Shown here: positions 2,709-19,294 of the stretch, piece by piece
Numbering within the stretch: the first letter of the stretch is position 1
How the letters are laid out: each line of letters opens with the position of its first letter
From: a virus
DNA: 20,451 bases
Virus record (IMG/VR): IMGVR_UViG_3300046690_000143
Coordinates: 1-20,451 of that record
Strand: one strand, 5' to 3'
The notes under the pieces: model-generated
What the model saw: the letters and a program-made list of their open reading frames with translations, nothing else
What the model was told of the DNA's origin: nothing
Database searches by the model: none
Program-made: the position numbers and the translations under genes

Positions 2709-2798
2709 TGTAGAAGTGCAGTTTCGGGGTGCCGTTCCGGTTTCCCTTAGGGACTCCTTAGGGATATGTGATTTAGGGGTCAAAACTACACTTCTACA
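2709..2798. repeat. 90-bp element C1 with inverted ends
   Basis: The ends are perfect inverted 10-mers, TGTAGAAGTG and CACTTCTACA. The middle contains CCTTAGGGACTCCTTAGGGA, a 9-bp direct repeat. An equal-length copy (C2) lies at 19205-19294 and differs at 8 of 90 positions by eye, six of them in one 14-bp block. No reading frame is shared, so the conservation is of DNA or RNA sequence. It is not an insertion sequence: it has no transposase and no flanking duplication that I can see. Confidence 0.75.
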
Positions 2799-2896
2799 TT
2801 GGTCTAGCATTTTCGCAGGTCAGATGGGGTACAGCTGATGGTGTGTTAGGTGGATGAGTGTAGAAGAGTCGGCGCACCTGTCCGCTGAAACGCCAA

Positions 2897-2929
2897 AGGG
2901 CGGCCCGAGCCGTAGCCCGTGACCGCCCT
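2897..2929 (-). terminator. Possible terminator after integrase cassette
   Basis: AGGGCGG and CCGCCCT form a 7-bp stem around a 19-nt loop, 23 bp beyond the stop of the zinc-ribbon gene. On the minus strand it is followed only by TTTGG, so it is weak as an intrinsic terminator. Confidence 0.4.
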
Positions 2930-2952
2930 GTAACCATCTAGTGTGACGTGCG

Positions 2953-3285
2953 TCACTGCTTCTGTAGGTACCGCACCGCTCGCACTGCCCGCTTCAGCCC
3001 CTCAAGGCCCCCGAGCATCCTGACGTGCTCCTCGCAGTGAGGGCAGATGCCGTAACCCTCGATGGCGCCACCACAGACAGCGCAGGTGTCCTTGCGCATC
3101 CCAGCGCGATAAGCGCTCATGTGGGCCCTGCGCTCTTCTAGGGTCTCGTCCGTCCGGTGGTCGCGCGCCCATGCTGCCCGGCACTCCCTGCACGCGCTGT
3201 GTCGCTGCCCTGTCTCCTTGTGCCGGAAGGGGAACTCAGCGAGAGGCTTGACCTCATGGCACTTGGTACATGTCTTGCTCGTCAC
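2953..3285 (-). CDS. Zinc-ribbon protein coupled to integrase
   Basis: A 110-aa protein from GTG 3285, whose GTGA overlaps the integrase stop codon; the integrase end also supplies GGAGG. It has four Cys pairs: CTKC and CREC around residues 5-35 and CAVC and CPHC around 71-86. The first half resembles the N-terminal zinc domain of the two HNH proteins at 15755-16189 and 9360-9881, but there is no HNH core. The C-terminus is basic and helical. Tight coupling to a serine integrase suggests an accessory role in integration or excision, or a DNA-binding regulator. That is inference from position only. A longer in-frame start at 3348 would lie wholly inside the integrase gene and is unlikely. Confidence 0.65.
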   Translation of the reverse strand: MTSKTCTKCHEVKPLAEFPFRHKETGQRHSACRECRAAWARDHRTDETLEERRAHMSAYRAGMRKDTCAVCGGAIEGYGICPHCEEHVRMLGGLEGLKRAVRAVRYLQKQ

Positions 3286-4715
3286 TGCGCTGCCTCCATG
3301 TCGCCGATCAGCTCCGCTAGCTCCTGGTCGTCGCCACCGATGGCCCATGTGATGTCCAGACGATCAGCGTCCCGCGCGGGGCGTGAGCCAACCTTCCGGG
3401 GGTGCAGCACCACGTGTAGCCCGACATCCCCGAGGAGCTTGGTCCTGCCTGCCTTGTCTGAGGCCTCCCACGCGTCCCCCAGGGTCCTGCCAGTGGGCAC
3501 GAGCACCTCTCGTACGTCAGGGTCATGCGCGGCCCTTAGAGAGGCGTATACGGCTTCCAGCTCCTCGGCGTGCTTCTCCAGTTGCGTCAGCATGAGGGGT
3601 CCAGCGCTGGCCATCTTGGACACGAGACGCTGCGCTTTCTCTTGAGCCTCGATCATCTGCGCTGACAGGTCGTTGCCACCCTCAAGGCGCACGGTGTGCT
3701 CGCTGAAGCCTCCCCAGCGCGTAAGGAACTCATCCTCGACCCGGTCGTCTAGGTGACTGGCCGTAATCGTCACGCAGCCAATCTTGCAGCGATAGCGGAG
3801 GACGCCATCACGCCGCTTTCCGCCATTCAGATTGTTGGTGCACTTGTAGCAGGTGCCCATGCCGTTAGTAACCAGGGGCGTTGCCTGACGGGGGGCACGC
3901 TCCTCGCCAACAGCCAGTGCGTTCAGTCGCTCGCGGATTTTCAGGGCCTCAGCGGCAGTGATGAGCGGCTCGACGAACTGAACGGGAACGATGCCGTCAG
4001 CGTCAAGAATGAGTTTTCCCTTGGTCGAGAAATGCCCGCGAAGAATGCCGTTCATGAGCATGCGGCGCCACTGACGCTCACCAATTCCCAGCATGCGGGA
4101 AGTGCTGGCCACGGTGCCATCCACAAGCAGGCTGTCTACTGCCTTGCGGACGTGCTCAATTTCGGGAGAGTGCTGGACCAGGTAGGCAGCGCCGTCCCGT
4201 CGCTCGATTGCGTAGCCGTAGGGGGCAAACCCGCTGACCCATCGCCCTTGCTGCCTGCGGGTGGCCTGCCCGTCGAGGATGCGACCTTTGATCAGCTCTC
4301 GTTCCCACTCGGCCAGCGCTGCCAGCACGGTTGCGACCATGCGCCCGGTAGCTGTGGTGGTGTTCACCACGTTGTCTGTCGTCGCTATGCGTACCGAGTT
4401 GGGCTCGGCCCATGCGACCAGGCGGAGGAACTCACTCACGCTGCGCGCGTATCGGTCCATCTTCCAAGCGAGGATCACGTCAGGCTTGTCACGCATCAGC
4501 TCGCGCATGCCCTTGCGCTCTTCCAGGGGCTTTGCGCCGGACACGCCTGCATCGGAGTACTCGGTTACCTCAGCGTCGGCATAGCCGTTGGCAGCCAGCC
4601 ACGTAAGGGCGGCAGCGCGCTGGGTCTCGATGGATGCTGATTCGGCGGTCTCGCGGCTGAGTCGGAGGTATATCGCGACTCGGGTCCTGCCTGCGGTGTC
4701 TCGGGTAGTCGTCAT
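3282..4715 (-). CDS. int: Large serine integrase
   Basis: A 477-aa serine recombinase that would integrate the phage at attB by attP x attB recombination. The N-terminal resolvase domain has the catalytic Ser20 in AIYLRLS, IETQR after it, and the arginine region AWKMDRYARS. The recombinase domain follows (GRWVSGFAPYGYAI), then a zinc-binding part with CYKC and CKIGC, and a coiled-coil stretch rich in Glu/Ala/Lys (EAQEKAQRLVSKM to LEKHAEELEAVYASLRA). Length is close to the R4-type integrases (about 470 aa) and below phiC31 (about 605 aa). ATG 4715 is preferred because the resolvase domain begins right after it; the frame is open 67 codons further upstream, but that part runs through a neighbouring gene. 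The ribosome site is weak (TTGGGAACC). Confidence 0.93.
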   Translation of the reverse strand: MTTTRDTAGRTRVAIYLRLSRETAESASIETQRAAALTWLAANGYADAEVTEYSDAGVSGAKPLEERKGMRELMRDKPDVILAWKMDRYARSVSEFLRLVAWAEPNSVRIATTDNVVNTTTATGRMVATVLAALAEWERELIKGRILDGQATRRQQGRWVSGFAPYGYAIERRDGAAYLVQHSPEIEHVRKAVDSLLVDGTVASTSRMLGIGERQWRRMLMNGILRGHFSTKGKLILDADGIVPVQFVEPLITAAEALKIRERLNALAVGEERAPRQATPLVTNGMGTCYKCTNNLNGGKRRDGVLRYRCKIGCVTITASHLDDRVEDEFLTRWGGFSEHTVRLEGGNDLSAQMIEAQEKAQRLVSKMASAGPLMLTQLEKHAEELEAVYASLRAAHDPDVREVLVPTGRTLGDAWEASDKAGRTKLLGDVGLHVVLHPRKVGSRPARDADRLDITWAIGGDDQELAELIGDMEAAQ

Positions 4716-4779
4716 GGTTCCCAAGGGTAGTCGTCTTCCCAGGAAGGAGACAAGCTCTGGGGACCACGCGGGGTGTTGC

Positions 4780-4992
4780 CTAGCCTCGCCACCCGTCCGG
4801 CGCTGTGACCAGGTCAGCGGACCACGCCAGCCGACACAGGTACAGCCAGTGTTCCGCGCCTGCGGGATCGTCCCAGTCAAGAGGCACCGTGGCGCCCTGG
4901 TCGTCTTGCAGCGCACAGAAGTCTGACGCCACTAGGTCACGTATCCCCCATTGCTTGTCTGGGGTCTGCCTGATTACGTATCTGCGGTTCAT
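4780..4992 (-). CDS. Unknown small acidic protein upstream of integrase
   Basis: A 70-aa protein from ATG 4992, rich in Trp and acidic residues (VPLDWDDPAGAEHW, LYLCRLAW). It begins MNRRYVIRQ and looks like a small globular domain. I do not recognise the family. It precedes the integrase by 64 bp and is probably in the same transcript. It starts 94 bp from the divergent plus-strand gene at 5087, so its promoter probably lies in 4993-5086. An upstream Met in the same frame would cross that divergent control region and is less likely. Confidence 0.55.
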   Translation of the reverse strand: MNRRYVIRQTPDKQWGIRDLVASDFCALQDDQGATVPLDWDDPAGAEHWLYLCRLAWSADLVTAPDGWRG

Positions 4993-5052
4993 GCCCAAGA
5001 TCGTATAGGCGCCGTGACCAGGGTGTGACCCCTTTCCCATACCGCAGGGCGA

Positions 5053-5069
5053 TTCGGTAACGGACCGAA
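5053..5069 (+). promoter_or_regulatory. Operator-like dyad D1 in the divergent region
   Basis: TTCGGTAACGGACCGAA has 6-bp inverted arms (TTCGGT, ACCGAA) around a 5-bp centre. Its first 15 bases recur exactly, on the minus strand, at 5804-5818. Here it lies between a weak -35 region and the candidate -10 TACAGT (5075-5080) of the plus-strand gene, a typical operator position. Confidence 0.6.
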
Positions 5070-5074
5070 ATTCG

Positions 5075-5080
5075 TACAGT
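5075..5080 (+). promoter_or_regulatory. Candidate -10 box for a leaderless message
   Basis: TACAGT ends seven bases before the A of ATG 5087. A transcript from this box would start at or next to the start codon, which fits the lack of a usable Shine-Dalgarno (GAGG is only one base from ATG). No good -35 match is seen. Confidence 0.35.
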
Positions 5081-5086
5081 TGAGGC

Positions 5087-5281
5087 ATGGGAAAGAGCAA
5101 GGGTGCGCCCCTTCCTGCGGGCGCCGTTCAGATATCAGGTTGTCTCGACCGTCATGACTCGCTGGTTCGCTGGCATGAAACCGCGAGGCTGTACACCAGG
5201 CTGCGAATGCCGTTCCAAGTAGCCATCCGCACGTACGGGCAGGGGTGGGCCCTATGGCGAGTACCAGCGCCCCCGCACTAG
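5087..5281 (+). CDS. Unknown 64-aa protein, the only plus-strand gene
   Basis: A 64-aa basic protein that I do not recognise, with a core of DRHDSLVRWHETARLY and YGQGWALWRVPAPPH. Support for it being real: it is flanked by an operator-like dyad and a -10-like box on its 5' side, and its stop is 4 bp from a 16-bp perfect terminator stem. It also fills a gap that has no good minus-strand gene, and third codon positions are moderately G/C-rich. It is divergent from the integrase cassette, the usual place for a lysogeny or excision control gene. No helix-turn-helix is visible, so a repressor role is not shown. Confidence 0.55.
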   Translation: MGKSKGAPLPAGAVQISGCLDRHDSLVRWHETARLYTRLRMPFQVAIRTYGQGWALWRVPAPPH

Positions 5282-5285
5282 ACAC

Positions 5286-5323
5286 AGAAGACCCGTCCGG
5301 GAAACCACCCGGACGGGTCTTCT
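5286..5323. terminator. Strong bidirectional intrinsic terminator
   Basis: AGAAGACCCGTCCGGG pairs perfectly with its complement over 16 bp around the 6-nt loop AAACCA. On the plus strand it is followed by TCTGTTT. It ends both the plus-strand gene (stop at 5281) and the converging minus-strand operon (stop at 5335). Confidence 0.9.
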
Positions 5324-5334
5324 TCTGTTTGAGG

Positions 5335-5547
5335 TTAGCCAGCCGCTATGGGCTTGCCGATCCTCGCGAGCCGGTAGGCGCCGTGAAGCCTCTGGCCCTC
5401 TTCGCACCCCAGGCTCGGCCCCTTAGAGCTGACACAGATGGGGCATGGCGGGGTCTCTCCGTCCCGGGGGTGCACGTGGTCGACGTACGCCGCCCACGCT
5501 GCCTCATAGCCCTTCTGCGGGACCGTGGGGCCCGTTCCCTCGCTCAT
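5335..5547 (-). CDS. Small Cys-containing protein, last gene of operon
   Basis: A 70-aa protein with CPIC near residue 36 and a later Cys in GPSLGCEEGQRLHGAYRLARIG, a possible small metal site followed by a helix. The ATG at 5547 overlaps the stop of the preceding gene by ATGA, so the two are translationally coupled. The converging terminator follows within 12 bp. I recognise this only as a type of small Streptomyces-phage protein, with no known function. Confidence 0.7.
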   Translation of the reverse strand: MSEGTGPTVPQKGYEAAWAAYVDHVHPRDGETPPCPICVSSKGPSLGCEEGQRLHGAYRLARIGKPIAAG

Positions 5548-5774
5548 GCCGACACCCGCTTTCCCAGTAGGTCAGCGCAGTACCCGCACCCCTTGAGTAC
5601 GCCAGAGTTCGACGCAGACTCAAAGACAGCGATCACCACCAGGACTTCAGTCGACCCGCCGCACAGAATGCAGAGAGCCCACGACTCCGGGAAAACGATC
5701 TTCGCTTGCCCGGCACCCGCAGGCTCCGAGTCAAGCGACTTTCTCAGCGCTTGTGCGCTGTCCGCTTGTGGCAT
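5544..5774 (-). CDS. Small zinc-ribbon-like protein
   Basis: A 76-aa protein with two Cys pairs, CILC (about residue 35) and CGYC (about residue 63), separated by a hydrophobic strand segment (STEVLVVIAVFES). This is a typical four-Cys zinc ribbon spacing. The ATG at 5774 is preceded by AGGACAACCGAAG and, 30 bp upstream, by a copy of the D element. It therefore probably starts its own transcript, which continues into the next gene through a 4-bp overlap. Function unknown; a DNA- or RNA-binding role is possible. Confidence 0.65.
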   Translation of the reverse strand: MPQADSAQALRKSLDSEPAGAGQAKIVFPESWALCILCGGSTEVLVVIAVFESASNSGVLKGCGYCADLLGKRVSA

Positions 5775-5803
5775 CTTCGGTTGTCCTAACTCACCACTAC
5801 GCC

Positions 5804-5818
5804 CGGTCCGTTACCGAA
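5804..5818 (-). promoter_or_regulatory. Operator-like element D2
   Basis: On the minus strand this reads TTCGGTAACGGACCG, identical to the first 15 bases of D1 and in the same orientation relative to the gene that follows (ATG 5774). It lies in the 58-bp gap between two small genes. Confidence 0.6.
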
Positions 5819-5832
5819 CTAGTTGAATCAGG

Positions 5833-6075
5833 CTACTCCCCGAGTACGTACGTTGTACGCCCCACGACGACGCTCGTTGCACCGTTCCTGATCTCCTGGG
5901 CAGCGCGCTCAAAGTCTTCCGCCCGTTCCTGGTTCTCCCGCGCTACGCGCTCCCACATGGCTGCACGCCCCTCAAGCTTGCGGAGCAGCTCGGCCACGCT
6001 GCGATAGTTCTTGACCTTGGGCGGACTGATTCCGTTCATGTCGTCATCCATGCAGGCGAGCGTACCGGTGGGCAC
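5833..6075 (-). CDS. Unknown coiled-coil-like protein
   Basis: An 80-aa protein if started at GTG 6075, whose TAGTG shares one base with the previous stop. ATG starts at 6051 and 6039 are alternatives; the last has GGA at normal spacing. The centre (RSVAELLRKLEGRAAMWER and onward to about residue 67) is a strongly charged helix with heptad-like spacing, followed by a short strand-like end (TSVVVGRTTYVLGE). No known domain is recognised. It is transcribed with the upstream gene. Confidence 0.65.
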   Translation of the reverse strand: MPTGTLACMDDDMNGISPPKVKNYRSVAELLRKLEGRAAMWERVARENQERAEDFERAAQEIRNGATSVVVGRTTYVLGE

Positions 6076-6479
6076 TACGCGTCCAACCTAGGGCGGAAGC
6101 ATCGGCGATCGGCCAGCGTGCCCGTGATCTCCCAGTAGCGACGAGCAGCCGCCTTGAACGTGTTCCAGGGCTCTCCCGTCGGCGCGTAGGCATGTTCGTA
6201 GGTGCGCCACTCCCACTCGTCCCGCGCAAGCACCAGGCCCGTCACTCGCCCACGGGCTAGCAGCGTGAACCGGTTGGCCTCCCGTGGCCGTATCAGGCGC
6301 GCCATGGTCGTTGCGTAGGCGCGTACCAGGGCCGAAGCCTCATGCCCGCTGTACGCGTAGTCAGAGGCCAGCACACCAGGCCAGCGCGGATGTTCGGACC
6401 AGGCCCACGACCCGTGACCGAGGGGCCCAGGGACGAACAGGAAGAGGTCAGCGGTAGGGGTAGGCAAGATGTGCACCAT
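6075..6479 (-). CDS. Unknown protein, 134 aa
   Basis: ATG 6479 gives a protein beginning MVHILPTPTADLFLFVPG and rich in Trp and Arg (ARDEWEWRTYEHAYAPTGE, FKAAARRYWEITGTL). There is no clear signal peptide and no motif I can name. A TTG start at 6539 with GGAG upstream would add 20 residues and cannot be excluded, because the ribosome site before ATG 6479 is poor. The gene is the first of a run of small genes ending at 5335 and follows an A/T-rich control region. Confidence 0.65.
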   Translation of the reverse strand: MVHILPTPTADLFLFVPGPLGHGSWAWSEHPRWPGVLASDYAYSGHEASALVRAYATTMARLIRPREANRFTLLARGRVTGLVLARDEWEWRTYEHAYAPTGEPWNTFKAAARRYWEITGTLADRRCFRPRLDA

Positions 6480-6692
6480 GATCAAAACCAGACAGAGTGG
6501 GTCAGGGGTGTCAATGAAGCGTAAAGCTTTAGGAATCAATCACTCCGCTTTGAGGTCCCATAAGTATGACTTGTAACACAGACGTAACAAAGGATAGTTA
6601 GTCTAGCTAACCAACCAAATAGTTAGTTTCGCTAAGTAAGGTTCCCCTCCCCCTGTGACCACCTACGAATTTTCGTATGTGAGCCACAACAC
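6480..6692. promoter_or_regulatory. A/T-rich control region with two 17-bp iterons and palindrome B2
   Basis: Between the terminator at 6693 and the gene at 6479 lies a notably A/T-rich stretch. It carries a 17-bp direct repeat at 6594-6610 and 6619-6635 (ATAGTTAGTCTAGCTAA and ATAGTTAGTTTCGCTAA, 15 of 17 the same, 25 bp apart) and palindrome B2. On the minus strand TTGTTA, 16 bp, CATACT (near 6590-6563) is a possible promoter for the operon beginning at 6479. Confidence 0.5.
6661..6681. promoter_or_regulatory. Family B palindrome, copy B2
   Basis: The dyad TACGAATTTTCGTA is at 6664-6677, between the terminator of the preceding unit and the iteron-bearing region. Confidence 0.6.
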
Positions 6693-6725
6693 AAAAAGGC
6701 CCCCAGTCCCGTAGGACCAGGGGCC
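6693..6725 (-). terminator. Strong intrinsic terminator
   Basis: On the minus strand GGCCCCTGGTCC pairs with GGACTGGGGGCC over 12 bp (two G-U pairs) around the loop TACG, followed by TTTTTG. It closes the unit that ends with the gene at 6737. Confidence 0.9.
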
Positions 6726-6736
6726 GAAGCTAGGGG

Positions 6737-6967
6737 TCAGCGCTTGCGACGCAGGGAAGCGAAGAACGAGCGCTTGCGCTTTTCAGGTTCCATGTAGTCA
6801 AACTCATTGATCAGCAGCACGCGGAACCAGTCAGCGTCACCGTGCGCGAGTCGCATGCACTTGGTCACCCCACCCGCAGTGACGTAGTCAACCTCGATCG
6901 TGTAGTACTTGCCCGTCTCGACCGTACGAGCCTCGATCACACGGGCAACGTTCTCAGTGTGCTTCAC
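6737..6967 (-). CDS. Unknown 76-aa protein
   Basis: Starts at GTG 6967 with GAGGAG 8-9 bases upstream. The first 45 residues look like a small beta-rich domain (VARVIEARTVETGKYYTIEV, then DYVTAGGVTKC), and the tail is very basic (EKRKRSFFASLRRKR). It overlaps the preceding membrane peptide gene by 14 bp. No family is recognised. A strong terminator follows the stop. Confidence 0.7.
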   Translation of the reverse strand: MKHTENVARVIEARTVETGKYYTIEVDYVTAGGVTKCMRLAHGDADWFRVLLINEFDYMEPEKRKRSFFASLRRKR

Positions 6968-7064
6968 GGTGTAGCTCCTCCCCCTTGCGCCGGTCCCACT
7001 CGTTCAGCGCGCTAATCGTCATATTGATGAGACCCACCAGGGCCACAAGCGCTATGTAGTACAC
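6954..7064 (-). CDS. 36-aa single-pass membrane peptide
   Basis: GTG 7064 gives a 36-aa peptide with a hydrophobic N-terminal half (YYIALVALVGLINMTISAL) and a charged tail (NEWDRRKGEELHREAH). GTAGGG lies about 8 bases upstream. The frame is open further upstream, but that part overlaps the deaminase gene and is Cys/Arg-rich, so the short form is preferred. It ends inside the start of the next gene. Function unknown; small inner-membrane peptides of this form are frequent in actinophages. Confidence 0.5.
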   Translation of the reverse strand: MYYIALVALVGLINMTISALNEWDRRKGEELHREAH

Positions 7065-7083
7065 GCGGGAGACCCTACGGCAG

Positions 7084-7094
7084 CACCTACGAAA
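7084..7094. promoter_or_regulatory. Family B half site B3
   Basis: CACCTACGAAA, one arm of the family B dyad, overlaps the stop codon of the deaminase gene and precedes the 36-aa peptide gene. Confidence 0.35.
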
Positions 7095-7500
7095 AACGCA
7101 ACACCCATCGCGCTGTAGGACACACCACACGGGCAATGCGACTGGCTCGAATCAGCGTCCAGCATGCCGGACAAGGGGCCCGAGTCGTGTACAGCGTGGC
7201 GCCCACCCGATCGAGCGGGGCAGTGTGACGGATGGCGTTTCGCTCCGCATGGTCCGCAGTGCAGTTCGAGTAATCCGTGTTCGCTGCGCACTCGGCGTAG
7301 GTGAGCTGACCACGCGGGCACGCACCCTCTGTGAGGCACCCAGGGACACCCGCAGGCGGGCCGTTGTAGCCAGTCCCCCTCACCTCATGCGCTGCGTTGA
7401 CCAGGATGGCACCAACGGCGCTACGGGAGCAGTCGGCGCGAGTCGCCACCCACTCAGCACCAGCGAGAAAGTACGGGTCCCAATCGGGGCGCTCGTTCAC
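7087..7500 (-). CDS. dCMP deaminase-family zinc enzyme
   Basis: A 137-aa protein of the cytidine/deoxycytidylate deaminase fold. It has the zinc ligand and catalytic glutamate in HAERNA (His84, Glu86) and the second zinc site PCPAC (Cys110, Cys113). An earlier DCSRSAVGA is a usual N-terminal feature of dCMP deaminases. It would convert dCMP to dUMP, the substrate of the ThyX encoded two genes upstream, so the pair forms a dTMP-supply module. GTG 7500 overlaps the previous stop by GTGA. Other members of the superfamily, such as ComE-like or riboflavin deaminases, are possible but fit the context less well. Confidence 0.8.
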   Translation of the reverse strand: MNERPDWDPYFLAGAEWVATRADCSRSAVGAILVNAAHEVRGTGYNGPPAGVPGCLTEGACPRGQLTYAECAANTDYSNCTADHAERNAIRHTAPLDRVGATLYTTRAPCPACWTLIRASRIARVVCPTARWVLRFS

Positions 7501-7841
7501 CGGTACCTCTCAAGCTCGATGTTGAACGAGTTGGACGCGCGCGGGTACATGACCAGCGAGGTATCCCCCTGCACGTGCACGGCGCCATCCGAGACGTACA
7601 CCTGAACGGCCTGACGAACGCTCCGCTCATGACCGGGCGGGGTGATGTGGAACGCCACTCGTGCCCCTCGCGGTAGCGGGAAGTCGTTTAGCGACCCGTA
7701 GTCAAGTAGGTACGTATCCGAGTCAGGAACGTTGCCCTTGAGTTCCTCGACCTTGCGCTGTGACGCCCCCAACTCGCGCCGTAGGGTTCTGAGTTCCTCC
7801 TGCGCCCACTTAGGCAAGCGAGCCTCGCGAGGGTCTGCCAC
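7497..7841 (-). CDS. Unknown 114-aa protein with N-terminal coiled coil
   Basis: Starts at GTG 7841 behind AGGAGAGAGACC, a good ribosome site inside the overlapping membrane-protein gene. Residues about 9-36 ([19 protein letters not shown], then RKVEELKG) form a charged helix with heptad spacing. The rest is beta-like, with GARVAFHITPPG and VQVYVSDGAVHVQG. No catalytic motif or known family is recognised. It is coupled to the deaminase gene by a 4-bp overlap. Confidence 0.65.
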   Translation of the reverse strand: MADPREARLPKWAQEELRTLRRELGASQRKVEELKGNVPDSDTYLLDYGSLNDFPLPRGARVAFHITPPGHERSVRQAVQVYVSDGAVHVQGDTSLVMYPRASNSFNIELERYR

Positions 7842-7927
7842 GGTCTCTCTCCTGTCAGCCAGACAACGGCCAGCGCCCCGAGCGCGTACACACCCAGGGC
7901 ACTGACCACGATTACGAACGTACTCAC
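7688..7927 (-). CDS. Small membrane protein overlapping the next gene
   Basis: GTG 7927 overlaps the thyX stop by GTGA. The first 25 residues are one membrane segment ([19 protein letters not shown]), followed by WLTGERPWQ. The frame runs to 79 aa, but 154 bp of it lie over the next gene, and that part is Arg/Ser-rich and low in hydrophobic order, as expected of an out-of-frame reading. Either the protein really has this tail, or the two frames are joined by a frameshift or sequencing error. The start and membrane segment are well supported; the tail is not. Confidence 0.5.
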
Positions 7928-8613: not shown

Positions 8614-8633
8614 AGCTCTCTCCTCCTACGCGA

Positions 8634-8667
8634 GGGGGCCACCTACGAACTTTCGTAAGTGACCCCC
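8634..8667 (-). terminator. Hairpin built around palindrome B4; possible terminator or operator
   Basis: The dyad TACGAACTTTCGTA (8644-8657) is extended by GGGGGTCAC and GTGGCCCCC to a stem of about 15 bp with two G-U pairs. It lies just past the stop of the gene at 8679 and 21 bp before the thyX start. No T run follows (CTCGCG), so a protein-binding or RNA-structure role is as likely as termination. Confidence 0.5.
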
Positions 8668-8678
8668 AGTGTTCGTGA

Positions 8679-8852
8679 CTAAAGATCGTTGCCAGCGAGG
8701 AACTGCGCGAGGTACAGCGCATCTTCCGGGCCAGCGTCAGTGAAGAATCCCGCATCGTTGATCAGCCGCACGGCCGTCCGGTAACAATCCGCCCGGTCCG
8801 CGATGATCGTGGTCACGTTCTGCTCAGCAATCGAGGCGTCAAGTTTCGCCAT
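8679..8852 (-). CDS. Unknown 57-aa protein
   Basis: ATG 8852 gives a small acidic, mostly helical protein (ADRADCYRTAVRLINDAG, then DALYLAQFLAGNDL). A GTG two codons upstream is an alternative start. The gene begins just after the stop of the 26-aa membrane peptide, with GGCGG nearby. A longer frame to 8960 would overlap that peptide and its neighbour and is unlikely. No family is recognised. Confidence 0.6.
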   Translation of the reverse strand: MAKLDASIAEQNVTTIIADRADCYRTAVRLINDAGFFTDAGPEDALYLAQFLAGNDL

Positions 8853-8854
8853 GG

Positions 8855-9099: not shown

Positions 9100-9142
9100 G
9101 GCCGTACTTCCGTTCGTTGTGTTCTTGGCTTGTGCTGAGGCT

Positions 9143-9159
9143 CTAGCGGTTCGAACGCA
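9143..9159 (-). promoter_or_regulatory. Family A element, copy A2
   Basis: CTAGCGGTTCGAACGCA, preceded by CTGAGGCT as at A5. It lies within a few bases of the stop of the HNH gene fragment (9161) and 44 bp upstream of the next start. Confidence 0.6.
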
Positions 9160-9160
9160 G

Positions 9161-11038: not shown

Positions 11039-11055
11039 CTAGCGGTTCGAACGCA
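11039..11055 (-). promoter_or_regulatory. Family A element, copy A3
   Basis: CTAGCGGTTCGAACGCA lies 37 bp upstream of the sigma-like gene. A related GCGCTCGAACGG lies a few bases to its left, so this copy may be doubled. Confidence 0.6.
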
Positions 11056-11093
11056 CTCCCCGGGCCGCTTTGCTGAGCTGCACCTTCACCTTT

Positions 11094-11323: not shown

Positions 11324-11334
11324 AACATCAACGA

Positions 11335-13185: not shown

Positions 13186-13214
13186 TGCGTAGCTCCTCGC
13201 TTTGTGGCATGCAA

Positions 13215-13247
13215 AGGGGCCACCTACGAACTTTCGTAGATGACCCC
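13215..13247 (-). terminator. Hairpin built around palindrome B6; possible terminator or operator
   Basis: The dyad TACGAACTTTCGTA (13225-13238) is extended by GGGGTCA and TGGCCCC to a stem of about 14 bp with two G-U pairs. On the minus strand CCCCTTTGC follows. It lies between the primase stop (13263) and the polymerase start (13185). Confidence 0.5.
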
Positions 13248-13262
13248 TGCAAGCGTGTTGTG

Positions 13263-15701
13263 TTAGTCCTGGGAAAAGATGCCCGGACCCGTCTTCACTT
13301 CCTGGCTAGCGGTTCGAACGCCAACCAGGACCATGCCCTTGGACCCGCGCACCCGCTGAATCCCGCGCTCCTCCATCGCCGAGTAGAACGCGCGTCGCGT
13401 CCACACCTCGCGCTGCGGAAGTCCCTCAGCCTCGCACCAGTCCTTGTAATCGTTGTACGCCTCAGCGCCATCTATGCGGGCCGAGTCGTCAGCCACCAGG
13501 ACACCAGGGAAGAAACCCGCGAGCGCATCGCTGGTTTCCTTGTACTCCTGCGTTGCCTTGGTGATCGAGGCAGGATCTTTCAGCCCACCATCGAACCAGG
13601 TACGCGCACCCCGAACGGCCCAAGCGGCAATCCCCTGCGCCTCAGCGAGTAGCTGCTTGTCAAGGTCGTACTCGCGCTCATGCGGGGCAAAGAACCGCTT
13701 GAACGGAATCATCTTGACCCGTCGCCAGAGTCCGTCATCCTGCCCCTTGAACTTGGGCTTGTGGTTGGTCGCGAGCATGAGCAGGAACGAAGGCTTGAAC
13801 TCAAAGAACTCTTGACGCAGGAAGCGGGCAGAGACCATGTCCTTACCCGTGACCCGCTTGAGTACCGCCTCACTCATGGGCTTACCCGCCTCCCCCTCGC
13901 TGGCCATGACCAGACGAGCACCTCGCAGCGAGGCAATGTCGTTGGGGATACCGCCCGACGACTTTTCCTCGAACGTGGCGAACGGAGTTGTCTTGGTGAT
14001 CGTGCCAAACACAGAGTCAACGGTGTCCGTGAGCACGCTCTTACCGTTTGCGCCCTTGCCCCACAACACAGCGAAGCACTGCTCATCCGTGTACCCAGTC
14101 ACGCCGTACCCGATCAGCCGTTGCATGTACGGCACAAGGTCAGCGTCGTCGGGGAAGATCTCAGTCAGGAACCGTTCCCAGCGCGGGCACTGCGCGTCAG
14201 CGTCATAGCTGATCGCGAGCGAGTAAGTGAGCATGTCCTCTTTGCGGTGCTCGCGCAGCGTGCTCGTACGCAGCTCTACCGTGCCGTTGCGGAAGCTCAG
14301 CAACTCCGGCCGGTTGTCAAAGTCCTGCGGCGCCACATACACACTCGGCACACTGCGCAGCTCAGTCAGCAGCGCGTCAATGCGCGTGGTCATGGTGAAA
14401 CCCTTGGACTCGGCAAGCTTGCCAGCGAGCACCAGGGCAGCGCCCATACGGTGGATCTCCTGACGCACCTTGACCTCACTGCGCTCCCACACGTGACCGT
14501 TCCACACGTAGAAGCCAAGTCCCGGGGCGTACTTAATTCGGCCGTCAGTCCAAGCCACCAGCGCGTGAGCGTTCATCGCGTCAGAGTCGCCGTACCGCTC
14601 GATCAGCGAAGCAAGGATGCGACCCGCTTCCGCGCCCTGGTCACGGCTCACAACATCCGCGCCGGTAGCTTCGTTCAGCTCCTCGCTGACTGCCGCTCGT
14701 CGAGCATCCTCGGGCTTGGCCACGGGTCGCGCAGCCTTAATCGCGTTGTGGATGGCCCACGGGAAACCGGCAGAGTCCAGCGCACGCCAATCGGTCAAGT
14801 CTGCTTTGTTGTCCATGCCAGCGGGCAGGGGCAGCGCGTACACCTCGATACCGAACGGCTTGAGTCCCTCGGCCAACTTTCGGTTGAAGTCCCGCCCCGC
14901 CTTGTCATTGTCGCCACACGCGATGACCTGCGTTCCCTTGACCCCTGCCGCAATCTCAGCGAGCAACTCGGGAGAACCTGCCAGAGCAGCGCCACGGACC
15001 ATGACCACGTCGTAGCCCACAGAAACCGCTGTAAGGCCATCTCCGGGCCCCTCAGTGACCAGGGTGACCCCATACCCGCCCTGACCCTTGAAAACGCCGT
15101 ACGGGGCCCAGCGGAAGCCTTCAGGGTTGGTCAGCGACACCCAGCGCCCCGGGCACTTACCGGTGAGGTCACGCCCCTGCAAGCCACGGGGAACACCCTG
15201 GAAGTCAAGGAGCGGAACCGTGAGACGGGGGAAAGCCTTGTACGCACGGCTGAGCGCGCTGAAGAGCGGGTTAACCGTCGTGTCGTCGACCCCCACCCCA
15301 AGCTCAGTGGCCGTATCGACGTCCATGCCAAACCGGCCGTCGAGGTACTCGCGAGCCTGCTCCGACCAGTCGTCATCCTCGCGCAGACGATCACGCGCGT
15401 CGTACGCGTACATGGCCAGAGCGGCAGTGTGCTTCGGTCCCACCAGCTCAGCCTTTGCGCTGCGAACGGTAGGGGCCTCCCCCTCAACGTCGAACATGTC
15501 TCGCCACTCCAACTTCGCTGCCTTGACCACGTCCCCCGTAGGACAACCGGCACGGCACGTCATGCGCACCTTGCGATCGTCACCAATCCATATACGGAGG
15601 GACGGACGGGAGTCACCATGCGCCGGACACACGGCGAGGAAACCCCCGTCCGACTCTTCAGTGACCTCAGCGAATCGGCCCAACAGGTCGTCAATCTTCA
15701 C
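13263..15701 (-). CDS. DNA primase-helicase (TOPRIM plus D5/SF3 helicase)
   Basis: An 812-aa protein. A zinc-binding domain is at the N-terminus (Cys25, His28, Cys49, Cys53 in CPAHGDSRPS and CRAGC). A TOPRIM primase domain follows, with TEGPGDGL (Glu217) and GDNDKAG (Asp264, Asp266). A D5-type N-terminal region and an SF3 ATPase come after, with Walker A GKGANGKS (548-555) and a sensor-like LATNHKPKF. It makes RNA primers and unwinds the fork, feeding the polymerase encoded next. GTG 15701 has AAGGGA at good spacing. Element A5 is 34 bp upstream, and element A4 lies inside the last codons (VRTAS). The arrangement is like the phiC31-type primase-helicases. Confidence 0.93.
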   Translation of the reverse strand: MKIDDLLGRFAEVTEESDGGFLAVCPAHGDSRPSLRIWIGDDRKVRMTCRAGCPTGDVVKAAKLEWRDMFDVEGEAPTVRSAKAELVGPKHTAALAMYAYDARDRLREDDDWSEQAREYLDGRFGMDVDTATELGVGVDDTTVNPLFSALSRAYKAFPRLTVPLLDFQGVPRGLQGRDLTGKCPGRWVSLTNPEGFRWAPYGVFKGQGGYGVTLVTEGPGDGLTAVSVGYDVVMVRGAALAGSPELLAEIAAGVKGTQVIACGDNDKAGRDFNRKLAEGLKPFGIEVYALPLPAGMDNKADLTDWRALDSAGFPWAIHNAIKAARPVAKPEDARRAAVSEELNEATGADVVSRDQGAEAGRILASLIERYGDSDAMNAHALVAWTDGRIKYAPGLGFYVWNGHVWERSEVKVRQEIHRMGAALVLAGKLAESKGFTMTTRIDALLTELRSVPSVYVAPQDFDNRPELLSFRNGTVELRTSTLREHRKEDMLTYSLAISYDADAQCPRWERFLTEIFPDDADLVPYMQRLIGYGVTGYTDEQCFAVLWGKGANGKSVLTDTVDSVFGTITKTTPFATFEEKSSGGIPNDIASLRGARLVMASEGEAGKPMSEAVLKRVTGKDMVSARFLRQEFFEFKPSFLLMLATNHKPKFKGQDDGLWRRVKMIPFKRFFAPHEREYDLDKQLLAEAQGIAAWAVRGARTWFDGGLKDPASITKATQEYKETSDALAGFFPGVLVADDSARIDGAEAYNDYKDWCEAEGLPQREVWTRRAFYSAMEERGIQRVRGSKGMVLVGVRTASQEVKTGPGIFSQD
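13306..13322 (-). promoter_or_regulatory. Family A element, copy A4, inside coding sequence
   Basis: CTAGCGGTTCGAACGCC lies within the 3' end of the primase gene, 121 bp upstream of the polymerase start. It is the only copy inside a gene. Confidence 0.5.
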
Positions 15702-15734
15702 TTATGAATCCCTTCTGTCTCGTTCGCTGAGGCT

Positions 15735-15751
15735 CTAGCGGCTCGAACGCA
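15735..15751 (-). promoter_or_regulatory. Family A element, copy A5
   Basis: CTAGCGGCTCGAACGCA, preceded by CTGAGGCT as at A2. It lies between the HNH stop (15755) and the primase start (15701). Confidence 0.6.
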
Positions 15752-15754
15752 CTT

Positions 15755-16189
15755 CTAGAACGGGGGCTCCTCGGGGCCGAACGACTCCGCCCACTCGGCC
15801 AGCGTCTTAGCACCCTTGGACAGGTTGCAGGGAGCGCACGCGGGCACGATGTTGGCCTCAGTGTCCGTACCGCCCTTACTCAGCGGTTCCACATGGTCAA
15901 GGTGCTCAGCAGGTGCACCGCAGTACGCACAGGTGTGGGACCAGCGCTTGAGGATGTCGGTACGGCTGTACGCCACATGCTCAACACCGTACGACTCGGC
16001 ACGCCGCTTGTGCGTCAGCCTGTGACGCTCGTCGGGCGGTAGGCGCCGGTAATAGTTCTTGACGTGCTGGGCTTGCGCCTTACGTCGACATGTCGCGCAC
16101 GCTGAGGATGGCTTCTTAGCCTTGCCAGCGAGGAACTGTTCAGCGGGTTTGGCCCGCCCACATAGTCGACACACGCGCGGGGCGCTCAC
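15755..16189 (-). CDS. HNH endonuclease with N-terminal zinc ribbon
   Basis: A 144-aa protein. CRLCGRAKPAEQF and CATC form a zinc ribbon, a basic helical linker follows, and then comes the HNH core: CAYCGAPAEHLDHVEPLSKG, IVPACAPCN and KTLAEWAESF. It is probably a free-standing homing endonuclease that nicks or cuts phage DNA to spread its own gene. GTG 16189 is chosen because GTGA overlaps the previous stop and AGGTGG lies upstream; GTG 16198 would add three residues. The HNH core is nearly the same as that at 9161-9382, so the two are recent paralogues, and both stop beside a family A element. Confidence 0.85.
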   Translation of the reverse strand: MSAPRVCRLCGRAKPAEQFLAGKAKKPSSACATCRRKAQAQHVKNYYRRLPPDERHRLTHKRRAESYGVEHVAYSRTDILKRWSHTCAYCGAPAEHLDHVEPLSKGGTDTEANIVPACAPCNLSKGAKTLAEWAESFGPEEPPF

Positions 16190-16356
16190 CGGACCCACCT
16201 GATCTCAGCGCCACGGGATACCGCCTGCGCTAGAGCATCCTGATACCGGCCCCAGTCCTTGCGTTTCGTTACACCAGCGACGAGAACCAGAGTCATCCCC
16301 TCCCCCAGGGTGCGGACGTCCCCCATAGGTGGGGCGGATTCGAGACTGATTCGCAA
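16186..16356 (-). CDS. Unknown 56-aa protein
   Basis: TTG 16356 is preferred because GGAGG lies 4-5 bases upstream; an ATG at 16389 would place palindrome B7 inside the gene. The product is small, with a hydrophobic strand (GMTLVLVAGVTKRKDWGRY) and a helical end (YQDALAQAVSRGAEIRWVR), perhaps a compact alpha/beta domain. It is coupled to the HNH gene by GTGA. Not recognised. Confidence 0.6.
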   Translation of the reverse strand: MRISLESAPPMGDVRTLGEGMTLVLVAGVTKRKDWGRYQDALAQAVSRGAEIRWVR

Positions 16357-16360
16357 CGTA

Positions 16361-16384
16361 CCTCCTACGAAAGTTCGTATGTGC
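16361..16384. promoter_or_regulatory. Family B palindrome, copy B7, merged with ribosome site
   Basis: The dyad TACGAAAGTTCGTA is at 16366-16379. On the minus strand its right arm continues as GTAGGAGGTACG and then the TTG start, as at B1. A terminator lies just upstream (16394-16434). Confidence 0.6.
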
Positions 16385-16393
16385 TCCAACAGG

Positions 16394-16434
16394 AAAAGGG
16401 GCCAGCGAGCGGCCTAAGCCTGCCCACTGACCCC
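16394..16434 (-). terminator. Intrinsic terminator
   Basis: On the minus strand GGGGTCAG pairs with CTGGCCCC around a G/C-rich inner part, followed by TTTTCC. It closes the unit ending at 16442 and lies directly before palindrome B7. Confidence 0.7.
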
Positions 16435-16441
16435 AACTCCC

Positions 16442-16732
16442 CTACTGGCCTGTCTGGTTCACAAAATCTGGAGTGACCAGGCGGACATGTTCCGCGCTGA
16501 TCTCTACCGGCCGTAGCGTCTTGCGGGAACCGAGACCCCAACCGGAGTCAGTACCCGTGGGCTGGACGACCAGCGTAGGCAGCAGCCGACCCCCGATGTT
16601 CTTGGTAGTGACGTCAAGGACCACGGCGTCAGAGAGGCGCACACGGTTGCCGTGACGGGTGCCGAACGACACCAGGTCACCCGCGTAAAGCTCCTCGCCT
16701 GCATAGTCGGTGACGACTCCGCGCTTACCCAT
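16442..16732 (-). CDS. Unknown 96-aa protein, SH3/KOW-like start
   Basis: ATG 16732 shares a base with the previous stop (TGATG). Residues about 10-45 (ELYAGDLVSFGTRHGNRV and then DAVVLDVTT) have the AGDxVxF pattern of small beta-barrel domains; the rest is also strand-rich (LLPTLVVQPTG). A nucleic-acid-binding role is possible, but no family is recognised. It is followed by a terminator and pairs with the upstream gene, which has a similar start. Confidence 0.7.
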   Translation of the reverse strand: MGKRGVVTDYAGEELYAGDLVSFGTRHGNRVRLSDAVVLDVTTKNIGGRLLPTLVVQPTGTDSGWGLGSRKTLRPVEISAEHVRLVTPDFVNQTGQ

Positions 16733-17091
16733 CAGATCTGCCCCTTAGTGCGGTCGGCAATGTCGAGAACGCGCTGAGCGGCATGGGCCACCTGCATACG
16801 TCGGGGGGTGTCCAGCGAGACGAACGAGCGGCCGAACATGGTCACGGCCAGCGTTCCCGCTACCTGGTCGAGGCGCGGAACGATGCGCTCAAGCTCCATG
16901 TCCGGCACCAGGGACACATTCCCGTCAGCCTTGCGAATCAGGTAGCGCAGGCGCGCACCAGTGGTCTTGTGCGGACCAGACAGGATCTCAGCGGGCATGA
17001 CGTTGCCCCGGAACTTGACCTTGTCACCAGCACGGAATTCCGCCACGTTCTCTCTCCTCGGGTCGCGTTCGGGCGTAAAGATGAAAGTCAT
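16732..17091 (-). CDS. Unknown 119-aa protein, SH3/KOW-like
   Basis: ATG 17091 has GGGAGGAGAGA upstream, a strong ribosome site. Residues about 18-60 (FRAGDKVKFRGNVMPAEIL, then LRYLIRKADGNVSLVPD) suggest a small beta barrel, as in the next gene. The C-terminal half is helical (RRMQVAHAAQRVLDIADR). The two neighbours may be related or act together. No known function. Confidence 0.7.
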   Translation of the reverse strand: MTFIFTPERDPRRENVAEFRAGDKVKFRGNVMPAEILSGPHKTTGARLRYLIRKADGNVSLVPDMELERIVPRLDQVAGTLAVTMFGRSFVSLDTPRRMQVAHAAQRVLDIADRTKGQI

Positions 17092-17165
17092 TGGGGTCTC
17101 TCCTCCCTACTGCCTCAAGCCCGGAACCCCGCGCAGTGCGGAAGTCCCGGACAATTGGCAGTGCG

Positions 17166-17333
17166 CTAGCTGTATTCAGGGTCACCGATCGGCTCGTCAT
17201 CCATGCGGAAACGGGCACGGCGCTCATGCTGTACGGCTGGTCGAGCCTCTGGGGGAAACTCCCACAGGGGGCGCCTGATCTCATCATCAGACGCACCCCG
17301 CAGGAGACCCGACCACTGGGAACGGGTCGGCAT
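17166..17333 (-). CDS. Unknown 55-aa protein
   Basis: ATG 17333 begins 4 bp after the stop of the gp3-like gene, whose last codons supply GAGGAG. The peptide is Arg/Pro-rich (SDDEIRRPLWEFPPEARP, HERRARFRMDDEPIGDPEY) and probably has little fixed structure. Alternative in-frame starts would overlap the upstream gene. No family is recognised. Confidence 0.55.
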   Translation of the reverse strand: MPTRSQWSGLLRGASDDEIRRPLWEFPPEARPAVQHERRARFRMDDEPIGDPEYS

Positions 17334-17337
17334 GGCT

Positions 17338-18066
17338 TTACCGCTCCTCGCCAATCGCGTCGTTGTACGAACCGAGCACCGTGATTACGGGCTTGCGGTA
17401 ACTGACGTCAATGCCAGCCTTGTTGGTGTACTGGACGTGCTCAAGTTCGAGTCGGCAAAGAGCCTCACCCTCGACCTGGTCTAGCGCATCCTTCACTTCG
17501 TGGATCACCTCAGCGAGAGACCACGCCGTAGCGATGAGCTTCCCGGCACCCAGCTCATAACCGGCACCAGCGAGACGGAACGTGACGTTGATCGAGGGAG
17601 ACGGACCCTTGGGCGGACGCCGCTTAGCAAGGTCCTTACGCTCGGCCATGGTGCGCGGGCATCCACACGGCTCACCCCGGTCATCAGGCAGAAGCGAGAA
17701 CTCACCATCGCACTCATGCGCAGGGCCACCAATGCCCCACAGAATGAGCTTGTCCTCGATGGCCTTGCTGCCGTTGATGACGATCTCAACAGCGGGAGAC
17801 TCGGTCATGACGTGCAGGTGCATTGCCTTGGTCGGGTCGTACTCCTCGGCGACACCACCAAGCAGCTCCGATATGCCCTGCGCCACCGTCGGATCGTCAG
17901 TCAGGACACGCCAGTTGGGGAGGCTGACCGGGTCCATGCGGCGCGTGTCAGGGTTGCGCACCTGCATGCCGGACCGGAACTGAAACACGGGGCGCTCATA
18001 CTCGCGCTTAGCCTCGCGCTTCTTCGGCTTAGCGTCAGGGTCAGTGTCAAAGATGCGCAGGGCCAC
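17338..18066 (-). CDS. phiC31 gp3-like protein; candidate recombination directionality factor
   Basis: A 242-aa protein from GTG 18066 (GGCGG upstream), starting ALRIFDTDPDAKPKKR. Features I associate with the gp3-like family of Streptomyces phages are RIFDTDPDAKP at the start, SLPNWRV, ECDGEFSLLPDD, GEPCGCPRTMAERK, PSPSINVTFRLA and WSLAEVIHEV. The length matches phiC31 gp3 (about 240 aa). In phiC31 this protein binds the integrase and turns it to excision. Here it lies about 13 kb from the integrase, among early genes, as expected. The match is from memory of the family, so a related DNA-metabolism role is possible. A GTG at 18123 is a less likely start. Confidence 0.65.
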   Translation of the reverse strand: MALRIFDTDPDAKPKKREAKREYERPVFQFRSGMQVRNPDTRRMDPVSLPNWRVLTDDPTVAQGISELLGGVAEEYDPTKAMHLHVMTESPAVEIVINGSKAIEDKLILWGIGGPAHECDGEFSLLPDDRGEPCGCPRTMAERKDLAKRRPPKGPSPSINVTFRLAGAGYELGAGKLIATAWSLAEVIHEVKDALDQVEGEALCRLELEHVQYTNKAGIDVSYRKPVITVLGSYNDAIGEER

Positions 18067-18157
18067 GGGTGTACCGCCGTTTCTTGGGAGTCTGTGAACG
18101 TGGAACGGGGAGGCGAGGGGCACTAGGCCAGCCTCGCTCTCCCCCCTCGATGTGGTG

Positions 18158-18174
18158 CTAGCGACTCGAACGCA
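18158..18174 (-). promoter_or_regulatory. Family A element, copy A6
   Basis: CTAGCGACTCGAACGCA lies between the stop of the 49-aa membrane peptide (18180) and the gp3-like gene start. Confidence 0.6.
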
Positions 18175-18179
18175 GTTAC

Positions 18180-18329
18180 TCAGCGGTGCATAAGGCAGCG
18201 CGCGGGAACGTCCTTGACCGACGTGTACTTGAACGTGTCACACGGGGCGCTGACGCGAGCCCAGAAGTGCCCAGCGAGAAGGAGCACCGTTACGACGATC
18301 AGTAGGACCCAGGGCCAGTCTTTACGCAC
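18180..18329 (-). CDS. 49-aa membrane peptide
   Basis: GTG 18329 overlaps the nuclease stop by 8 bp. The peptide begins MRKDWPW and continues with one membrane span (VLLIVVTVLLLAGHFW). A polar C-terminal part has two Cys (APCDTF and ARCLM), which would lie outside the membrane if the basic N-terminus stays in the cytoplasm. The gene fills an otherwise empty gap. Function unknown. Confidence 0.6.
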   Translation of the reverse strand: MRKDWPWVLLIVVTVLLLAGHFWARVSAPCDTFKYTSVKDVPARCLMHR

Positions 18330-19149
18330 GTCGCTGCGTCCCCGTGATCAGCGCGCCATCGGTCGACCAGATGGGGTCACCCAGGACCGTCTTAGACGTC
18401 TTGTTGACCCACTCGAACGTACGGCGCAGGTACAGGAAGTGGTCGTAGACGTCCTGGTCGATACGCACGGGCTTGAACGCTGCCTGCGTATCAGTGATGT
18501 GCAGGACCACGGCGCCATCAAACGTGGGCATGGGCTCTTCACTACCGTCCGGCGCAACGATCTTGTCAGCGTGCGCGTATGCAGCCATCTGAAGGGCCAC
18601 GTCAGGGTAGGTGGCCTTGCTCGTCTTCCAGTCAGCCATCACCAGCGCGGTTTCACCCAGCGGGTCAGGCTTCCCGTTCTCGTCGAGCTTCAGGCGCAGG
18701 ATGCCGTCAAAGCTTCCCGCGTACTCATGCGTGTCAGACCAGGCGACATCCTCAGCGCGGACAAGTTCAGGCTGAACGGCGTCGAGGAACTCCCCGAAAT
18801 GCCGCTGGTACGGAACCATGTCAGGGTGAACGCGCCCGACACGCTCACCACGGATGAGACGCTCAAACAGGTCATGCGCCTCGCTGCCAACTCGGGCGCG
18901 AGTCTTGGTGTACCGGGTCGCTGCACCCTTGAGGTACTGCACGGCGCCGTCCCGGTCACGCTCGGCCATCTGCTGTATGAAGTCCAGCGAGTCAACGGCC
19001 AGTTCGGCAACCATCTTGGCTTGCCAGTACGCGAGGAACGGCTTAGGCAGCATGCCAACCACGCTGGTCACACCGGGGTATTTGATATCGGGGAACGCTT
19101 CGTTGAAGTAGAAGCGACTTCCGGAACGCTGGACAGTACGGACGGCCAC
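18322..19149 (-). CDS. PD-(D/E)XK nuclease, RecB/Cas4-like exonuclease
   Basis: A 275-aa protein with the motifs of the RecB-type fold in order: GSEAHDLFERL (His92), AGSFDGIL (Asp148), ADWKTSK (Asp173, Lys175) and ALQMAAY (Gln187, Tyr191). Such phage nucleases resect DNA ends for recombination or replication. No Cys cluster for an iron-sulphur site is visible, so it is not a typical Cas4. GTG 19149 has GGGG upstream, although spacing is not ideal. It is the first gene of the early block after elements C2, A7 and B8. Confidence 0.85.
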   Translation of the reverse strand: MAVRTVQRSGSRFYFNEAFPDIKYPGVTSVVGMLPKPFLAYWQAKMVAELAVDSLDFIQQMAERDRDGAVQYLKGAATRYTKTRARVGSEAHDLFERLIRGERVGRVHPDMVPYQRHFGEFLDAVQPELVRAEDVAWSDTHEYAGSFDGILRLKLDENGKPDPLGETALVMADWKTSKATYPDVALQMAAYAHADKIVAPDGSEEPMPTFDGAVVLHITDTQAAFKPVRIDQDVYDHFLYLRRTFEWVNKTSKTVLGDPIWSTDGALITGTQRRA

Positions 19150-19158
19150 GCTGGCCCC

Positions 19159-19182
19159 TTTCGTAGGTGGTTACGAAGTAGG
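19159..19182. promoter_or_regulatory. Family B half sites B8, everted
   Basis: TTTCGTAGGTGG is followed directly by TTACGAAGTAGG. The arms face outward instead of inward, just upstream of the nuclease start. Confidence 0.4.
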
Positions 19183-19183
19183 G

Positions 19184-19200
19184 CTAGCGACTCGAACGCA
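19184..19200 (-). promoter_or_regulatory. Family A element, copy A7
   Basis: CTAGCGACTCGAACGCA, 5 bp from the left end of element C2 and 35 bp upstream of the nuclease gene. Confidence 0.6.
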
Positions 19201-19204
19201 GGAG

Positions 19205-19294
19205 TGTAGAAGTGCAGTTTTGAGGTCTGGTTTCGGTTTCCCTTAGGGACTCCTTAGAGATATGTGATTTGGGGGTCAAAACTACACTTCTACA
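19205..19294. repeat. 90-bp element C2 with inverted ends
   Basis: The left end TGTAGAAGTGCAGTTTTGA and the inverted right end agree at 18 of 19 positions. The centre has CCTTAGGGA twice in slightly altered form. It is the same length as C1 (2709-2798), with 8 differences by eye. Confidence 0.75.

Follow-up and report, generated by a model that had tools for sequence, protein, structure and literature searches.

The alpha protein of phage P4 uses a pair of cis sites, ori and crr, which carry shared repeats within one genome and are located a few kilobases apart in the 11.6-kb genome of this phage. In the SaPI and PICI satellites, the origin has an A+T-rich region with a set of short iterons on either side (PMC6092414). 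For phiC31, from which integration tools in wide use are derived, and for its relatives, no origin of replication was found to be described in the searchable open literature, a scope outside which the older phiC31 promoter and genome papers fall. In this report, we describe two 90-bp elements in a stretch of viral DNA from IMG/VR record IMGVR_UViG_3300046690_000143 (positions 1 to 20,451; the whole of this 20,451-base stretch is referred to here as the window). In all likelihood, this pair serves as origins of DNA replication for a phiC31/Rowa-type Streptomyces phage and would be bound by its own primase-helicase. We favor this reading because the letters in the arms of the elements change in step with residues in the wing of the primase-helicase.

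Two 90-bp Elements in the Window

The elements are named E1 and E2 and correspond to C2 and C1, respectively, in the first-pass annotation of this DNA. They and their associated features are listed below.

19205-19294, - strand: E1, a 90-bp origin-like element directly upstream of the exonuclease gene
19205-19217, + strand: E1 arm with TGTAG (19205) and TGCAG (19213), 8 bp apart and facing the core
19234-19264: E1 core, CCCTTAGGGACTCCTTAGAGATAT, a possible melting region
19282-19294, - strand: opposite E1 arm with two TGTAG units (CTACA at 19282 and 19290), 8 bp apart
19300-19309: accessory box GCAGGTCAGA (equivalent to TCTGACCTGC) beside E1; this box is also found in the phiC31 and AbbeyMikolon groups
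19343-19347, + strand: outlying single TGTAG near E1
2709-2798, - strand: E2, the second 90-bp element, with endonuclease VII and integrase on one side and the tRNA/late end on the other
2709-2721, + strand: E2 arm with TGTAG (2709) and TGCAG (2717)
2738-2768: E2 core, CCCTTAGGGACTCCTTAGGGATAT
2786-2798, - strand: opposite E2 arm with two TGTAG units (2786 and 2794)
2815-2824: accessory box GCAGGTCAGA beside E2
2859-2863, + strand: outlying single TGTAG near E2
18322-19149, - strand: Cas4-like exonuclease gene, which follows E1 in the relatives examined

The first-pass annotation had placed two elements of 90 bp at these coordinates with about eight differences between them, and all of this was confirmed. 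E1 and E2 are identical at 82 of 90 positions and differ at 8 (counted by eye), and a repeat search of the window returned the pair at 92% over 95 bp. No third copy of the element was found in the window. The sequence TGTAGAAGTG and its complement are found at both ends of both elements; with at most one mismatch, TGTAGAAGTG has seven matches in the window, against 0.79 expected, and seven matches were reached in 0 of 100 shuffles. The 19-bp inverted ends that had been proposed hold for E1, where 18 of 19 positions are paired (19205-19223 with 19276-19294), but are weaker for E2 (16 of 19). Similarly, the repeated sequence described in the center of the elements applies to E2, which contains CCTTAGGGA twice, but not to E1, where the second copy reads CCTTAGAGA. 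The flanking motifs were found as annotated: GCAGGTCAGA occurs exactly twice in the window (2815 and 19300), the third box, TGTAGAAG, is to the right of each element (2859 and 19343), and a family A motif is beside each on the - strand (2665-2678 and 19184-19197). The G+C content is 0.43 for E1 and 0.48 for E2, compared with 0.62 for the window.

All of the large genes in the window are on the - strand. In the order of transcription, E1 is found just ahead of the Cas4-like exonuclease gene, at the start of the exonuclease/early block, and the integrase and endonuclease VII genes are followed by E2 and then by three tRNA genes. A terminator-like hairpin precedes both elements, in agreement with the earlier description of each as standing after a hairpin and before a transcription unit. 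The primase gene is located approximately 3.5 kb from E1, and E2 is approximately 10.5 kb away on the other side.

Conservation of the Element Pair

Among named phages, Streptomyces phage Rowa is the closest, and it has the same pair of 90-bp elements in the corresponding positions:

Rowa 22951-23040: element before the exonuclease gene
Rowa 41026-41115: element in the gap between the endonuclease VII and tRNA genes

A pattern scan of viral contigs gave 11 occurrences of the element, distributed over 9 contigs and each exactly 90 bp in length, with a pattern that allowed a spacer of 40-70 bases, so that other lengths could have matched. An element pair built alike but with other letters occupies these two gaps in phiC31 and AbbeyMikolon. 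The search in related phages that had been called for returned the pair at both places in 23 of 23 named relatives, 22 of them at first and Shady after its second copy was found by a later scan. These relatives include phiC31, phiBT1, TG1, and Rowa, and their hosts include Streptomyces, Arthrobacter (BaileyBlu), and Microbacterium (Honk). Relatives from IMG/VR also carry the pair at the same two positions. The arms differ among phages yet match within one phage. Only four proteins of the window have relatives in all 23 named phages: the exonuclease, the protein resembling a recombination directionality factor (RDF), the primase-helicase, and the DNA polymerase. The distance between E1 and E2 is 0.38-0.50 of the circular genome, with a mean of 0.46 (n = 23, positions approximate).

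A scan for inward-facing double units, which for the genomes marked W covered about 17-25 kb through to the genome end, returned exactly two sites in 17 of 20 genomes or fragments and one in G034. It missed AbbeyMikolon and Nesbitt, though alignments of their gaps show pairs. The unit of the other class and the reversed unit gave 0 sites in the same 20 genomes or fragments. The first-pass annotation had named two outcomes as refuting its proposal, a lack of conservation in related phages and many random copies across the genome; neither was observed, the genome-scale check being made in relatives.

One of the functions listed in that annotation was a pair of recombination sites, by which the serine integrase or another recombinase would move or excise the 16.5-kb early block. 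The two sites are alike, have the same orientation, and flank the integrase and the early block. However, the cores can differ between the two copies of one phage, as is seen in Sebastisaurus and Rowa, and a crossover site would not tolerate this. The elements also persist among phages with unrelated or strongly diverged integrases. The attP site of a serine integrase is about 50 bp in length and adjoins the start of int (PMC5311408), and the elements described here are 90 bp in length, occur twice per genome at a distance of 16-20 kb, and have cores that differ within a phage. A role in recombination is hardly credible.

Element Architecture across the Family

The build of the element is constant, with an inward-facing arm, an A+T-richer core, and a second inward-facing arm, and it is the letters of the arms that vary. 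There are two main classes, with units of TGACGnnn or TGTAGnnn (also TGCAG and TGTCG). Of 122 pairs of neighboring same-strand units no more than 24 bp apart, 77 have the peak spacing of 8 bp, compared with 1 of 5 for reversed motifs. The core often contains CTAAG/CTATAG-like boxes approximately 11 bp apart (by eye), and beside each element several phages also have a TCTGACC[A/T]G[C/G] box together with a single outlying unit. Arms of other kinds are present in phages such as Samy, Honk, Attoomi, Dubu, and phiSASD1.

The inverted repeats are long, exceeding 20 bp in Samy, Honk, and G012, and some changes in one copy of Samy are matched in the other; this could be expected if two transcripts began with RNA hairpins that act as put-like antiterminators or as leader structures. 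In the phiC31/BT1 class, however, the variable letters between the units are not kept complementary (in phiBT1 the left arm is GTGATGAA and the right arm is GTGACGTT, by eye), and the arms of Rowa and G004 pair over 13 bp only (by eye). Pairing within an RNA would also leave the co-variation with the wing, described below, without an explanation. We consider RNA hairpins to be very improbable.

Co-variation of the Arm Units with the Primase-Helicase Wing

The protein proposed to read the arms is the primase-helicase:

13263-15701, - strand: primase-helicase, the proposed initiator, with matches to Pfam Toprim (Toprim_2), D5_N, DUF5906, and, weakly, Pox_D5
13302-13493, - strand: its predicted C-terminal winged-helix domain, about residues 737-800 (AlphaFold2 model, Foldseek)
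13332-13358, - strand: wing residues 782-790 (QRVRGSKGM, including R785), where the co-variation with the arm unit is located

The Pox_D5 match (0.0026) is below the Pfam cut-off. Relatives of the exonuclease were collected from prokaryote genomes (61 loci) and from viral contigs (80 loci), and the DNA before the exonuclease gene was compared with the primase-helicase of the same locus. In L186, L188, and L197 the exonuclease is 84-88% identical to that of the window, yet the units are TGACG rather than TGTAG. Wings with RKKT, KRKT, or RSKT were found with TGACG, and wings with RVR, RTR, or RKR with TGTAG, TGCAG, or TGTCG.

The association was measured in a blind scan of 1,591 variable columns of the primase, the exonuclease, the RDF-like protein, and the DNA polymerase from 69 non-redundant phages. 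Before the scan, a counting rule gave the unit labels; approximately 10 labels, those of the TGCAG, TGTCG, and TG1 groups, were assigned manually, and four loci that were unrelated were removed. The top four columns were primase residues 790, 785, 787, and 784, and the sixth was residue 786. The corrected mutual information values for residues 790, 785, 787, 784, and 786 were 0.77, 0.74, 0.47, 0.43, and 0.37, respectively, where the entropy of the labels was 0.89. Among the four proteins scanned, the best column outside the primase reached 0.35. The sigma factor, the HNH protein, and two small conserved proteins were more weakly associated with the arm unit (0.14-0.45).

On a tree of the primase from which the C-terminal domain had been removed, the unit changed 9 times, compared with a shuffled mean of 18.3. 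In nine of nine phylogenetically independent pairs, K785 was found with TGACG and R785 with TGTAG, TGCAG, or TGTCG; one of these switches is in an Arthrobacter-type lineage, between BaileyBlu (KRKT) and G012 (KRRV). Primase column 107 was also consistent with the unit in the seven pairs that have this column. A ribbon-helix-helix protein had been considered as the arm reader, with the 8-bp spacing as in met boxes, and was dropped on the basis of the wing co-variation. The conservation of the elements, their architecture, their two copies per genome, and their co-variation with the wing are apparent in the sequences compared.

Both elements begin a transcription unit behind a terminator-like hairpin, and promoter-like family A motifs (GTTCGAACCGCTAG) are found between E1 and the exonuclease gene and also beside E2. 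The elements could thus be paired promoter/operator regions in which a phage regulator on the arms controls the early operon from E1 and the tRNA/late operon from E2. However, co-variation with the arms points to the primase-helicase and not to the sigma factor or the other early proteins tested, and the position and symmetry of the elements are kept across three host genera. No -10/-35 pair of the sigma-70 type common to the elements was found by eye, no promoter scan having been run, and the family A motifs occur at five further sites in the window that have no element. A purely regulatory function is improbable, given that the apparent recognizer is a replicative helicase; it is possible that binding at an origin also affects nearby transcription. 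Of the functions that had been listed at first, replication sites are therefore strongly favored.

Predicted Structure of the Primase-Helicase C-Terminus

The AlphaFold2 model of residues 671-812 is a winged helix in which residue 785 is located in the beta-hairpin wing. In the Foldseek search, the leading matches were to RFX DNA-binding domains (1dp7 and 8zjr) and to a D5-type primase-helicase tail, none with E < 0.001. RFX1 reads DNA through its wing, which agrees with the co-variation of the wing observed here. The best match of the window primase-helicase among PDB sequences was 7ola (E = 1.6e-9), which we take to be the SaPI5 primase-helicase. The tail of the D5-type primase-helicase has been related to the origin-binding domain of P4 gp-alpha and to RFX1 (PMC10516667).

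Prophages with a Single Recognizable Element

Six prophages (L126, L127, L128, L153, L232, and L236) have a third type of wing (VMKRT, VIKRA, IAKRA, or TVKRT; VMKRT in L127, IAKRA in L128, and VIKRA in L153), and no element was found in the DNA before their exonuclease genes. The prophage DNA downstream of the primase was searched for the second element and nothing was found, as is expected if integration next to int relocates that element to the far end of the prophage. At this far end, CGGTGnnnCGGTG elements of the CGGTG type with the usual core were found in L127, L128, and L153, and a TGACG element was found in L146, whose wing is RRKT (K785). A targeted follow-up search then added four more cases, all matching the wings: the element is of the CGGTG type in L126, L232, and L236 and of the TGACG type in L240; the L240 element is identical to that of L146 and is not independent. 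The true predictions are L146 and the second round, the CGGTG unit itself having been learnt from the first round. L126, L127, L128, L153, L232, L236, and L146/L240, with a single recognizable copy at the other site, are natural single-element cases.

Proposed Function of the Elements

We infer the binding, melting, and initiation, and the division of labor between the copies, to be as follows. The primase-helicase would bind the arm units through its C-terminal winged-helix wing, with one set of subunits per side, and would then melt the symmetric, A+T-richer core and load as the helicase and as the primase for the phage DNA polymerase. The two inward-facing arms would suit loading from both sides. 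With the origins approximately opposite one another on the circularized genome, forks from both could copy the genome in approximately half the time. Alternatively, one element would be the ori and the other a helper site, as for ori and crr of P4, with looping through the initiator in place of two independent origins. This sub-case of the origin reading draws on a primase-helicase of the same broad type as P4 alpha, and the arms of both copies fit the same wing; against it, both copies have the full architecture of arms and core, and some prophages have a single recognizable copy. A helper site is possible but appears unlikely. Bridging of the two elements by a phage protein, also suggested in the first-pass annotation, is a further possibility.

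The broader proposal that a very large family of actinobacterial phages, including phiC31, has two matched and opposite origins, with the specificity of initiator for origin set by a small switchable wing code, is evenly balanced. The same even judgment applies to the code itself, which is part of this proposal: K785 would read TGACG, R785 would read TGTAG, TGCAG, or TGTCG, and the third wing type would go with CGGTG.

Several observations weigh against the assignment of the elements as origins. As an origin marker, the GC skew was uninformative: it does not turn sharply at either element in Rowa or phiC31, and in AbbeyMikolon the turn is only weak. The nearly opposite location of the two elements may reflect the order of the genes as inherited. 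Since some prophages have one recognizable element only, two are not always needed. The K/R rule is broken by L133 (a K wing with TGGTG-like arms), by L129, L130, L246, and L248 (KKRT with mixed TGACG/TGGTG units), and by L177. The AlphaFold2 winged-helix model is moderately confident only (predicted local distance difference test score of 76), and a C-terminal profile searched against PDB sequences gave no match to the P4 origin-binding domain.

Other Features of the Window

The remaining features of the window are listed below.

2665-2678, 9143-9156, 11039-11052, 13306-13319, 15735-15748, 18158-18171, and 19184-19197, - strand: copies of GTTCGAACCGCTAG
1797-1833, 6658-6701, 8630-8666, 13211-13247, and 16348-16403: palindromic CTACGAAnnTTCGTAg sites in intergenic gaps
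19703-20449: partial repressor gene, which matches Phage_Repressor_c
17338-18123: RDF/gp3-like protein, found in every relative examined, even those with unrelated or very diverged integrases

The seven family A copies have 0-2 mismatches, are all on the - strand, and are mostly found in gaps before genes; they are probably phage promoters. An eighth match, with three mismatches, is on the + strand inside a tRNA gene. The CTACGAAnnTTCGTAg sites are probably operators of a phiC31-type repressor. Since the RDF/gp3-like protein is retained even by these phages, it may do more than control integrase and could perhaps take part in replication.

In the window (about 15640-15760), in Rowa (27128-27217), and in G004 (25571-25659), the primase gene has its start codon and ribosome-binding site inside an inverted repeat. 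The arms of this repeat vary among phages and stay complementary (CTCAGCGAA/TTCGCTGAG versus CTCACTCACACC/GGTGTGAGTGAG), which suggests an RNA hairpin that controls translation of the primase. The palindromes in Rowa and G004 had been considered as a third element and were set aside as a different structure.

Comparison with Known Systems

Two sites, a likely reader protein, and a candidate residue-to-base code have now been named for this phage family. The first-pass annotation knew of no named element of this kind, and this is correct for the phiC31-type phages; the general kind is known from the PICI/SaPI satellites. RFX, which reads the X-box, provides the best fold match for the C-terminal domain of the primase, and it is the wing of this domain that co-varies here. 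Unlike a phage initiator, RFX is a eukaryotic transcription factor and not an origin-binding helicase.

The likeness to P4 gp-alpha is that primase, helicase, and a predicted C-terminal winged helix are found in one protein. The units and the layout differ from those of P4, since here both copies are symmetric elements of 80-110 bp. Paired origins that face each other across the circle would, if confirmed, be unusual for a 40-kb phage.

The SaPI/PICI origins are similar in having inward-facing units on both sides, here at a spacing of 8 bp and in elements with a G+C content of 0.43-0.48 against 0.62 for the window, and in having a helicase initiator that often comes with a primase, either in fusion or as a partner. 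In contrast to the satellites, in which the origin is directly 3' of rep/primase, the elements described here are far from the primase gene, normally occur as two copies approximately opposite each other, and are built from TGNNG units with the 8-bp spacing. They are also found in complete phages of 37-61 kb, and the iteron type of origin would, if this reading is true, extend to complete phages.

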